Shown here in pieces: positions 28,970 through 31,540 of a DNA stretch of 64,000 nt (positions are counted from its first letter, which is position 1; each line of letters starts with the position of its first letter). The notes under the pieces are model-generated. The model had not been told where the DNA came from. It made no database searches and saw only the letters and a program-made list of their open reading frames with translations. The stretch is from Pseudomonas sp. KBW05. Its GTDB lineage: Bacteria > Pseudomonadota > Gammaproteobacteria > Pseudomonadales > Pseudomonadaceae. Where the stretch lies: positions 1-64,000 of the forward strand of contig NZ_QAJM01000020.1 in the NCBI RefSeq assembly GCF_003852405.1, read 5' to 3'. The position numbers and the translations under genes are program-made.

Positions 28970-28983
28970 CGGTAGGCGTTGGT

Positions 28984-29028
28984 GGGGAAATGGGGACGGA
29001 CCCCATTTCTCCGACCCCATTTCTCCCG
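28984..29028. repeat. GAAATGGGG palindromic repeat, distal end of the immunity region
   Basis: GAAATGGGG (28987-28995) pairs with CCCCATTTC (29001-29009) around ACGGA, followed by a second CCCCATTTCT copy. It is followed at 29030 by CGTTACGAGTCGCGGTTA, which recurs at 29556 next to a sister palindrome. Confidence 0.85.
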
Positions 29029-29044
29029 GCGTTACGAGTCGCGG

Positions 29045-29431
29045 TTAAAGCAAACCGAGCTTAATGGCTATGCCCAAGGTCATCATGACCGCTATCAGCC
29101 CGAGCGCGCTCCATTGCAGACGCACGAGTTTAAGTTTGAGCGCGACCGGAAAGCCCGCGAGCTCTTCGGTGCTCAACATACCTCTTTTGATGTGGCGCTT
29201 TGGAAATGTGACGATTCCAGAAATGCTACCGATCACCAGCAATTTCCCCCATGGCCCCCCGTACCGAAAAGTCGCCCAAAATGCGACTATCGAACTGTTT
29301 TTCAGGTGTTCCAGGATGAGGTCCATTTTTGTATAGGCAAGGTGCAGACAAATACCAAGCCATAGAAAAATGCCGGCAAAATCTGCCAAGGCAATAACCA
29401 AAAACACCTTGTCGCCTATGCTCAGGCTCAT
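29045..29431 (-). CDS. probable second immunity protein (small membrane protein, paralogue A)
   Basis: A 128-residue protein with three hydrophobic segments (about 8-33, 59-77, 105-128). It is about 60% identical by hand count to the neighbouring paralogue at 29571-29957 (shared blocks DFAGIFL, GICLHLAYT, LEHLKNS, GIAIKLGL). Its ATG overlaps by 4 bp the stop of a 31-codon toxin-tip fragment, just as the paralogue overlaps the full effector. I infer protection against a variant of the effector's membrane-active domain; the family has no name I recognise. Confidence 0.75.
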   Translation of the reverse strand: MSLSIGDKVFLVIALADFAGIFLWLGICLHLAYTKMDLILEHLKNSSIVAFWATFRYGGPWGKLLVIGSISGIVTFPKRHIKRGMLSTEELAGFPVALKLKLVRLQWSALGLIAVMMTLGIAIKLGLL

Positions 29432-29523
29432 TTAACCACCTCATAAATCTTTTCCCCTATCCGTTCACCCGTTGCCCCACCTACAGCTCCGGCGGTGGCG
29501 GAGGCAGTTCCAACTGCGACGAC
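29428..29523 (-). pseudogene. orphan C-terminal fragment of a PAAR-effector toxin domain
   Basis: 31 codons plus stop in the frame that overlaps the start of paralogue A by 4 bp. The fragment ends GERIGEKIYEVVK; the last residues of the intact effector are GGWVGEKIYEAAE. By hand alignment 15 of 31 residues are identical, and glycine spacing matches. It has no start codon of its own. Upstream it ends at the palindromic repeat (29525-29551). Confidence 0.8.
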
Positions 29524-29524
29524 C

Positions 29525-29551
29525 GGGAAATGGGGACGGCCCCCATTTCCC
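29525..29551. repeat. GGGAAATGGGG palindromic repeat between the two immunity genes
   Basis: An 11-bp stem (29525-29535 with 29541-29551) with loop ACGGC. It is a sister of the element at 28984 and separates immunity gene B from the toxin-tip fragment. It is followed at 29556 by CGTTACGAGTCGCGGTTA, exactly 526 bp from the same motif at 29030. Confidence 0.85.
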
Positions 29552-29570
29552 ACAGCGTTACGAGTCGCGG

Positions 29571-29957
29571 TTAGATCAATCCGAGCTTAATGGCTATGCC
29601 AAAGGTCATCATGACCAGCAAGAGGCCGATCATGGACCACTGCAAAAATGCCAATTTGCGTTTGAGGGCGGCGGGGAAACCCGCTAAGTCTTCAGCGCTC
29701 AATTGACCTTTTCTGAGTTGGTAGCTTGGGAACGTGATGAGCCCGCAAACGCCGCCTATGAACATCAGTTTTCCCCAGGGGCCGGCGTGTAGGATCGGTG
29801 CCCAAGTCATGATTGCCGGACTGTTTTTGAGGTGTTCCAGCATCACGTCTGCTTGGGTATAAGCCAGGTGCAGGCAGATGCCAATACAAAGGAAAATCCC
29901 GGCAAAGTCGACTAGCGCAATGGTCAAAAGAACTGTATCGCTCGTGCTCAGCGTCAT
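29571..29957 (-). CDS. probable immunity protein (small membrane protein, paralogue B)
   Basis: A 128-residue inner-membrane protein with three hydrophobic segments, paralogous to the protein at 29045-29431. The ATG overlaps the PAAR effector stop by 4 bp (ATGA), a typical effector-immunity layout. The likely role, by inference, is to neutralise the glycine-rich membrane-active C-terminus of the effector. The rapidly changing segment (about residues 46-58 and 74-86) would be the candidate specificity region. Confidence 0.78.
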   Translation of the reverse strand: MTLSTSDTVLLTIALVDFAGIFLCIGICLHLAYTQADVMLEHLKNSPAIMTWAPILHAGPWGKLMFIGGVCGLITFPSYQLRKGQLSAEDLAGFPAALKRKLAFLQWSMIGLLLVMMTFGIAIKLGLI

Positions 29958-31363
29958 TCAGCGGCCTCGTAGATTTTCTCGCCTACCCACCCGCCAAATG
30001 CGCCGCCCATGGTGCCTCCTGCGACAGAGCCTGCGCCAACCACGACGAGGCCGCATACCAAAGGAGCTATCCCTACGGTTGGTACACCCAACCCGACACA
30101 CAGGCCACCGACGACAGCACTTGATAGTGCCGCACCCGCCCAGGCACCACCACCTAGCGACCCGACAAAACTACCTGTTTCCGAAAACTTGATCTTCTCG
30201 CAGGCTTCTTGGTTACCCGCAGAACACACGTTTTTCACCTTCATATAAGAAGCCCCACCCCCAATCGCTGTACCGACCCAGCCTCCACGTTTGATCACCG
30301 TCGAAGCTTTCGCCAACTGTTGGATGTGGGTCGCGTAACCAGGTATCTGGCCCGGTGCCCCGGCCTGCGACCACCGATGAACAAGACTGCGGCTTGATAT
30401 TCCCAGCGCGGTTTTCAGATGGGGATGGTCGGGAATGCCGGCGCTTCTGCGGGTCAGGGCGGTGAGGTGGGTATCAAGCCAAGCCAGCGGGTTTTTGCGT
30501 TCGGCGAAGAATTCCGGTGATCGCAAGTGTCCGTCCTTGAGGAATGCTTTTTGGTGCAGTGCCTCGATGTCCTGCAAGATTGTTTTCAAGTTATCCAGGT
30601 TCCTGGCGAGTATGGTTTCACCCGCTCCGATAGCGGTTGAACTGTGGGCCAGGAAGCTTTGGATCTGCTCGCGATGGCGCATCATGAAGTCCGCATCGGC
30701 TGCACTAAGCGGGTTTATAGCGTCATGGGTGAGTGCCGCGGCTTCCAGTAAGTGGTTTTCTTCTTTGCTGCATTGAAAGTTGTTTGGATCGCCAAGCACG
30801 ATCAATGAGCCGGCTTTAACGTTGTCTGTTCGAGGGTTGAGCGTTCGGAACTTGGCCATTACCGCTGGGTCTGGCGTTGGAAATAACGTGGCCTCCAAAG
30901 CGTCGCGGGTCGTGCTTTGGGGCACGATATAGAAGCCGGGTTCTACACCTTGTGGGCTGTTAAGCGCAGAGGGCGTCCAATGACTCGAAGGACGGTACGT
31001 CGACTGATTCTGTGCCGCCGAACTGCGGGCCTGAGCCACTGGCGCCGGTTCAGCGGCGCGTCTCATGGCCGGCCGTTCGTAGCTTTCGTTGCGGTAGATC
31101 GCCGTGTAGATCGAGGGAATGAATCTTGCTCGGCAGGGGCAACTGCTGAAGCTGTCCAGCGTGCCAGCCATCAGCCTGCCATGGCTGTTCATGTGTGAAA
31201 TACCGCCGAGTATTTTATATATGCCCGGGTGCTTTCCACATGTCACGCGGTCTCCCTCACAGGCGTGGAGGAGGCCATAGATGTTTATGCTGGGGTCGCC
31301 ATCCAGGACTTTCCCGCCGCAGGTGGTTTTGTCACCCAAGCCAATGAAGTGTCCGTCACTCAT
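29954..31363 (-). CDS. PAAR-domain protein with LysM-like segment and glycine-zipper C-terminus; probable type VI secretion effector
   Basis: A 469-residue protein. Residues 1-85 are a PAAR-type spike tip (MSDGHFIGLGDKTTCGGKV, then HMNSHGRLMAG and CPCRARF). Residues about 141-192 resemble a LysM unit (YIVPQS...LNPRTDNVKAGSLIVLGDP). A helical middle (about 200-355) follows. Residues 360-460 are glycine- and alanine-rich with several GxxxG-like repeats and two hydrophobic stretches (about 405-432 and 433-460), suggesting membrane insertion. AAGGA precedes the start. It is followed by two paralogous small membrane proteins. No VgrG, adaptor or structural T6SS gene is in the window, so it would be an orphan effector loaded by machinery elsewhere. 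Effector function is inference from architecture. Confidence 0.82.
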   Translation of the reverse strand: MSDGHFIGLGDKTTCGGKVLDGDPSINIYGLLHACEGDRVTCGKHPGIYKILGGISHMNSHGRLMAGTLDSFSSCPCRARFIPSIYTAIYRNESYERPAMRRAAEPAPVAQARSSAAQNQSTYRPSSHWTPSALNSPQGVEPGFYIVPQSTTRDALEATLFPTPDPAVMAKFRTLNPRTDNVKAGSLIVLGDPNNFQCSKEENHLLEAAALTHDAINPLSAADADFMMRHREQIQSFLAHSSTAIGAGETILARNLDNLKTILQDIEALHQKAFLKDGHLRSPEFFAERKNPLAWLDTHLTALTRRSAGIPDHPHLKTALGISSRSLVHRWSQAGAPGQIPGYATHIQQLAKASTVIKRGGWVGTAIGGGASYMKVKNVCSAGNQEACEKIKFSETGSFVGSLGGGAWAGAALSSAVVGGLCVGLGVPTVGIAPLVCGLVVVGAGSVAGGTMGGAFGGWVGEKIYEAAE

Positions 31364-31540
31364 TCAAAATGTCCTTTTTATGCAGTCAGTAAACGTGCGT
31401 TTATTACGCAGTTACCCTGATAATTTGGATATTCGAAGTACAGTCGGACGCTTCCGGCCATCACTTAGGAAAAGTCAGCTGGATACGTAGGGATGGTGCA
31501 GATGGGGTCGCTGTACGGTGAAAATCACCCTGAGCGACGA

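Follow-up and report, generated by a model that had tools for sequence, protein, structure and literature searches.

A toxin-tip relict ahead of an orphan immunity gene in a Pseudomonas PAAR effector locus, probably left behind by displacement among alleles of one toxin family

In the stretch of Pseudomonas sp. KBW05 DNA analysed here (64,000 nucleotides, hereafter the window), a PAAR effector gene is followed by two immunity genes, and a short frame resembling the end of the effector lies between them. This arrangement raises the question of where the toxin fragment comes from, to which immunity gene it belongs and why it is still present. All elements lie on the minus strand in the order effector, immB, fragment, immA. 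The effector (29954..31363, 469 aa) displays the PAAR motif at residues 9-66 (Pfam PAAR_motif PF05488, E 5.5e-9); PAAR effectors ride the spike of the type VI secretion system (T6SS). Its stop codon overlaps by ATGA with the start of its immunity gene immB (29571..29957, 128 aa). In the same way, the relict toxin tip (29428..29523, 31 codons and a stop) overlaps with the orphan immunity gene immA (29045..29431, 128 aa), the product of which is 62% identical to that of immB. Inside the E-V codons of the fragment, 5 bases before the ATG of immA, a putative Shine-Dalgarno-like site of this gene is found (GAGGTG, 29437..29442, minus strand). The module made of the fragment and immA is flanked by a direct repeat on the minus strand, of which copy 1 (29525..29616) consists of the immB 3' tail and a hairpin at 29525-29551 with an 11-bp stem, and copy 2 (28985..29090) of the immA 3' tail and a hairpin at 28985-29011.

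The whole cassette (28970..31540) is bordered by a Gfo/Idh-type gene and a GGDEF gene, the ends of which converge on it. Among 29 Idh loci (L146-L174), these two genes adjoin without the effector in 10, with a gap of about 75 bases in L153; in one further locus, L154, they lie about 1 kb apart and the effector is absent, one (L146, from strain CBZ-4) carries the cassette, and for the other 17 no GGDEF gene was present inside the fetched flank of 1.5 kb. The hairpin was also considered as a dispersed repeat and this was rejected: at up to 3 mismatches it occurs nowhere else in the window's genome (2 places, each on both strands), and exact matches to a looser form came from 8 of 221 loci, each being the window or the CBZ-4 locus. 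Promoter and terminator scans were uninformative (0 promoter-like sites vs 1.5 expected; 2 terminator-like sites vs 2.9 expected). Two more homologues of the C-terminal part of the effector are encoded in the window's genome (G000:C65:180353-181258 and G000:C29:36967-37794, 32-34% identity).

The initial annotation had read the fragment, VVAVGTASATAGAVGGATGERIGEKIYEVVK, as a homologue of the last 31 residues of the effector. The ungapped alignment agrees with this reading: 15 of 31 residues are identical, GEKIYE is exactly shared, and the ATGA overlap is present at both immunity starts, that of immB with the effector and that of immA with the fragment. The description of the fragment as fused to the second immunity gene was corrected to a 4-base overlap. 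At the DNA level both units, from the tip through the immunity gene, align without gaps. The open frame around the fragment counts 41 codons (29428-29553), of which the first 10 lie in or beside the hairpin. A tip HMM trained on 62 intact effectors, the window excluded, gave the fragment a score of 42.9 bits, while the best of 600 control gene starts, 32 of which showed any match, reached 10.8 bits. The homology of the fragment to the effector tip is thus beyond chance. Among the 62 other tips, 30 end in GExIYE, 52 in a looser form and 7 in GEKIYE itself. Since this ending is a feature of the family, the shared GEKIYE indicates membership of the same family and not descent from the neighbouring effector.

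The family itself could be characterized as follows. PF05488 was detected at E 0.1 or better in 41 of 60 aligned effector homologues. When 399 genomes of the genus were sampled, 205 contained a match to the C-terminal part of the effector at E 1e-20. The toxin end, immA and immB had no counterpart among the Pfam and NCBIfam models at E 1. When 74 immunity proteins and 60 effectors were scanned more widely against Pfam, the matches other than PAAR were few and weak and formed no pattern (best E 0.0065). Effector residues about 142-190, EPGFYIVPQSTT...LNP...VKAGSLIVL, contain a stretch which we take to resemble a LysM-type domain; Pfam gave no match for it at E 1. The AlphaFold model of the effector is confident only in the PAAR part and in parts of the middle, the pLDDT of the C-terminus being about 40. 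For immA an all-helical protein was predicted (mean pLDDT 81), and a fold search with this model found nothing better than E 2. A sequence search of the PDB returned no relative of the effector and, for the immunity profile, two non-significant matches above E 0.4. The C-terminus of the effector is glycine-rich, with hydrophobic stretches at residues 407-425 and 430-448 and several GxxxG motifs, which suggests a membrane toxin; the small hydrophobic immunity proteins, immB displaying one hydrophobic segment per end, suggest a membrane antidote. Pore-forming T6SS effectors such as Ssp4, Ssp6, Tse4 and Tse5 are presented, in the part of the source used here, as membrane toxins with a small downstream immunity gene (PMC12669606). 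They are a likely analogue for the working of the effector.

Relatives were surveyed in 121 loci (L065-L144, L183-L221, L035 from CBZ-4 and 12 kb of the window). For this, 120 regions around relatives were fetched, L182 was dropped as a duplicate of L035, and CBZ-4 and the window were added; the loci were chosen from the best matches to immA and to the effector, which biases the sample to close kin. From 209 immunity matches, the 177 domains with intact start and end were kept. An intact effector precedes 101 of these, a recognisable tip with no intact effector precedes 36 (hereafter orphans), and the other 40 have neither, or only a weak tip, before them. The last two groups make up 76 domains, 8 being second domains of fused double proteins and 68 separate. 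A relict tip with an orphan immunity gene is a recurrent arrangement in this Pseudomonas toxin family. Among the 36 orphans, 13 have no preceding immunity gene, and several of these are effectors broken in place. Nine of the 36 relicts are split into several frames, and six of those nine are effectors broken in place. For the 23 orphans located behind another immunity gene, relict lengths from about 13 to 334 codons were estimated from the profile, 8 of the 23 having at most 31; these estimates are approximate, the window's 31 codons being given as 39.

Tips and immunity genes of the orphans were compared with those of the 101 intact pairs. The mean within-orphan rank correlation of tip similarity and immunity similarity was 0.447 for the 36 orphans (permuted mean 0.208, maximum 0.366 in 1000 permutations), kinship among strains not being corrected for in this and the following permutations. 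The immunity gene of the best-tip effector was in the top 5 of 101 for 24 of 36 orphans (permuted mean 3.5, maximum 12 in 2000). When own-locus pairs were left out, the correlation was 0.443 (permuted maximum 0.325) and the top 5 was reached by 23 of 36 (permuted maximum 11). With the same exclusion, the 23 orphans behind another immunity gene gave 0.440 (permuted maximum 0.332 in 1000) and 15 of 23 in the top 5 (permuted maximum 9 in 2000). The immunity gene of the best-tip effector lay outside the top 5 for 12 of 36 orphans, with ranks down to 98. In the 17 orphans that share their locus with an intact effector, the tip of that effector was the best in 5 and its immunity gene the best in 6. 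By sequence similarity, a relict tip thus tends to go with the effector to which its immunity gene is cognate.

Fused double immunity domains (254-281 aa) were observed in 8 of the 121 loci (L105, L107, L110, L213, L215, L084, L100 and L221), and four of them (L105, L107, L213 and L215) have a right flank in common. Such frames may be orphan immunity genes joined to their neighbour. In two other loci, L195 (G375) and L201 (G326), two intact family effectors stand in tandem, together with relict tips and further immunity genes; these loci are possible stages before or between displacements.

The origin of the window's fragment was traced by the same comparison. Among the 101 intact effector-immunity pairs, the best tip for the fragment is that of L188 (G372), with 20 of 31 residues identical, and the best match of immA among the 101 paired immunity genes is also that of L188 (0.67 identity; immB reaches 0.61). 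The window's own effector ranks 22nd of 101 by tip and immB 5th of 101 by immunity. The second-best tip belongs to L183, the immunity gene of which is the 4th for immA (0.63). Because the best tip and the best immunity match coincide in L188, the fragment and immA appear to belong together and to derive from another allele of the family. This agrees with the reading of the fragment as a toxin-tip relict accompanied by its own immunity gene and not by that of the neighbour, a foreign pair topping both rankings. The proposal that an intact effector with such a tip should be paired with an immunity gene like immA holds at the level of the family. No effector near-identical to the fragment and no direct donor was found among the 101 pairs, the closest intact source being 65% (tip) and 67% (immunity gene) alike. 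In a tree of 137 immunity proteins, immA is nearest to L188; immB falls in a set of three rows with 98% SH-aLRT, together with its nearest rows, CBZ-4's immB and that of L183 (G342), and immA is absent from this set. Constraining immA and immB to stand together was not rejected at 5% (p-AU 0.07, from few columns and a quick tree).

Loci grouped by their right-flank DNA allowed displacement to be followed at related sites. L108 (G274) carries an effector, here called Y, and its immunity gene. In L097 (G275), an effector W and its immunity gene are followed by a relict tip Z and immunity gene Z and, after these, by a relict tip Y and immunity gene Y. The right flanks of the two loci are 88% identical over 557 bases from the first base on, and the alignment running from inside tip Y through immunity gene Y into the flank of L097 is 91% identical over 1110 bases to the intact effector end, immunity gene and flank of L108. 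Over 580 bases, the Z module shares 90% identity with an intact effector end and immunity gene in L093, and the end of the active effector W with its immunity gene is 90% identical over 464 bases to the relict module of the same L093. A second group is formed by L193 and L066, with matching flanks. The relict tip and immunity gene of L193 are 93% identical over 430 bases to the active ones of L066, and the end of its active effector, together with the immunity gene, aligns at 87% identity over 412 bases with the second immunity gene of L066 and the end upstream of it, which is too eroded to score as a tip (only 7.2 bits). Read from these alignments, displacement in place is seen in two locus groups. 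The comparison of sister strains that had been suggested for the window's locus fits displacement in these other loci of the family.

At the window's own site, a search of genome contigs with immB gave the sister strain CBZ-4 (L035) as the only match. Its DNA is 94.5% and 94.8% identical to the window over about 8.5 kb; the effector and immB are present, and the fragment and immA are absent. No intact effector with the fragment's tip was found at this site, CBZ-4 being the sole other strain found with the site, and without the relict. The end of the immunity gene with the hairpin, GGGAAATGGGG...CCCCATTTC, which stands on both sides of the fragment and immA in the window, occurs as one copy in CBZ-4. 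Over its final 45 nt, immA shares 91% identity with immB and 93% with CBZ-4's immB; before that point the values are 66% and 65% (p 3e-4 for immA and immB), and the tail of immA is only 60% identical to that of L188. The 3' end of immA thus looks exchanged with the resident tail. By eye, the tail in CBZ-4 resembles immB as far as the last sense codon, and this codon itself resembles immA, a weak sign from few bases. In the comparison of the window with CBZ-4 (window 29954-31363 vs L035:2595-4001 for the effector), dS amounted to 0.067 for effector residues 1-200, 0.273 for residues 201-469 and 0.332 for immB. The neighbouring GGDEF, MFS and Idh genes gave 0.145-0.190 and two further genes 0.217-0.223. 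The jump inside the effector has a p of 4e-5, and the toxin end with immB differs from GGDEF, MFS and Idh at p 6e-4. A recombination boundary inside the effector is likely on these values, which point to different histories of the PAAR part and the toxin end.

The last codons of the toxin point to a possible reason for the persistence of relicts. In 61 of the 101 intact effectors, the YE motif is followed by three residues, and its glutamate is encoded by GAG in 58 cases and by GAA in 3, while the background is 43% GAG among 1708 other Glu codons of the same gene ends (p 8e-18). Within the final 20 codons of these tips, other glutamates use 50 GAG and 83 GAA (n=133), and where four residues follow the glutamate the count is 14 GAG vs 7 GAA. 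In the three-residue group, the GAG occupies positions 11 to 9 upstream of the immunity start, the usual place of a Shine-Dalgarno sequence; the bias is as expected if this codon is the Shine-Dalgarno sequence of the immunity gene. The NTGA overlap is kept in 34 of 36 orphans. A YE motif running into the NTGA overlap stands before the immunity domain in 80 of 101 pairs, in 28 of 36 orphans and in 9 of the other 40 domains. Of 1032 control genes, 1 shows this motif, and 496 have an NTGA overlap of some kind. Some relicts hardly exceed the YE motif and the overlap, the shortest having about 8 codons, as for the second immunity gene of L188 which is preceded by EVVYESHK alone; what relicts have in common is therefore the last codons and not a toxin-sized protein. 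The glutamate is lost in the relict tips of L193 and L065, and no YE motif with overlap stands before 31 of the 68 separate immunity genes without an intact effector upstream. A Shine-Dalgarno function of the GAG codon may explain the survival of tips, and loss of the last tip codons would then silence the immunity gene.

Several other explanations of the fragment were weighed. Glycine-rich tips are low in complexity, so that a chance likeness had to be considered; it is refuted by the profile score, well above that of any control, and by the motif with overlap in front of 37 of 76 immunity domains without an intact effector, and its probability is practically nil. Hardly more credible than an accident of composition is a stand-alone small coding or leader sequence that never was part of a lost effector. 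In its favour, a regulatory element, the ribosome-binding site, seems to lie in the last codons, which is a leader-like role. Against it, the 23 orphans that come after another immunity gene have relicts spanning about 13 to over 300 effector codons, and tips tend to match the effector that is paired with their type of immunity gene. Conservation of the fragment as a stand-alone sequence without a matching effector was seen in none of the loci examined, and this reading was set aside. A tandem duplication in place of the tip, immunity gene and hairpin, followed by divergence, would explain why both units have the same order, length and hairpin and align without gaps, and the tree that joins immA and immB is not rejected at 5%. 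This origin is disfavoured, and we hold it to be very improbable: immB belongs to a strongly supported set without immA, the fragment and immA are both closest to L188, and the immunity proteins are only 62% alike, yet CBZ-4, with flanks 94-95% alike, lacks the second unit.

A more substantial competitor is a late addition, in which a foreign tip with immA recombined downstream of immB through homology of the immunity-gene tails and no resident effector was displaced. CBZ-4 looks like the state before such an insertion, the last 45 nt of immA are resident-like, and the module has a copy of the hairpin and tail on either side. Against it, the relict in two related locus groups has kept the old site and the old flank, which is what displacement predicts, and the mosaic tail of CBZ-4, weak as it is, fits a deletion between the repeats. 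Both a loss in CBZ-4 between the repeats and a late gain in the window are consistent with a CBZ-4 locus free of the relict, and we regard the late addition as rather unlikely. The idea of tip exchange put forward in the initial annotation is therefore retained in part: the relict is the tip of another allele and related loci show displacement, while at this very site an old tip may have been pushed downstream.

We consider it probable that the fragment derives, by erosion, from the 3' end of a different PAAR effector allele of this family, and that it stayed with its immunity gene immA after displacement and was kept for the ribosome-binding site of immA. According to this scenario, recombination would have brought in a different effector C-terminus together with immB; the old effector would have been lost for the most part, and immA with the last 31 toxin codons would have stayed. 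As an orphan immunity gene, immA would probably guard against neighbours with an L188-like effector tip. We infer that the relict is kept not as a protein: its last codons would hold the ribosome-binding site of immA, and its stop overlaps with the immA start. Since both lie there, these few tip codons could not be removed without silencing immA.

Exchange in Rhs and CDI systems consists in the swapping of unrelated tips behind a conserved marker, the VENN motif in the case of CDI. The displacement of Rhs C-termini was reportedly described by Jackson et al. in 2009. The comparison with Rhs and CDI exchange made in the initial annotation does not hold in this respect, as the tips considered here are mutually homologous and represent divergent alleles of one family. 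In the part of the CDI literature drawn on here (PMC3150448), orphan cdiA-CT/cdiI modules are described behind an intact toxin gene, and these orphans correspond to intact pairs found in other strains; one orphan immunity gene is said to have its own Shine-Dalgarno sequence, its toxin fragment lacking start signals. The present family is alike in that orphan toxin ends with immunity genes match intact pairs elsewhere. According to the same portion of PMC3150448, the toxin domain can be retained in CDI orphans from the VENN motif onwards, and such orphans can work as toxins, whereas the relict in the window is too short for a toxin.

The closest likeness is with the T6SS of V. cholerae. The sections of Kirchberger et al. 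(2017, PMC5361080) considered here describe how a new effector-immunity module displaces an effector and the former immunity gene persists downstream; in one of the steps described, the 3' end of the former effector persists as well. Successive displacements build immunity arrays, and duplication is argued against. As in the array described there, an effector 3' end precedes an extra immunity gene behind an intact pair in the window, and this relict and immA match a foreign pair better than the resident pair, at moderate identity (20/31 and 0.67). Two differences from that account, which concerns different effector types and T6SS clusters, are that alleles of one PAAR toxin family are involved here and that the relicts are often very short and appear to hold the ribosome-binding site of the immunity gene. 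For recombination at agrobacterial vgrG loci, the portion of PMC8546570 referred to here describes no tip relicts and does not tell duplication and acquisition apart. Displacement with a retained relict is thus already in print for the V. cholerae T6SS and for CDI, in the parts of these sources cited. Among the top-listed titles and abstract beginnings of the literature searches, which give no proof of absence, none described this family or placed a ribosome-binding site within a relict; the dual-use tail was thus not met in these searches.

Displacement with a retained immunity gene is a known route for bacteria to accumulate spare protection against toxins injected by rivals. Orphan immunity genes are hard to assign to toxins, and the attached tip often points to the toxin here, the order of relicts being readable as an order of replacement. 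As a reading that is about as likely as not, we propose that the last codons of the toxin are of dual use, encoding the YE...K tail and carrying the ribosome-binding site of the immunity gene, and that they would thereby set the smallest piece of toxin travelling with this gene, so that orphans are often barcoded by their source effector. If this is true, the past toxins of a strain's ancestors and the order of their displacement would be readable from sequence.
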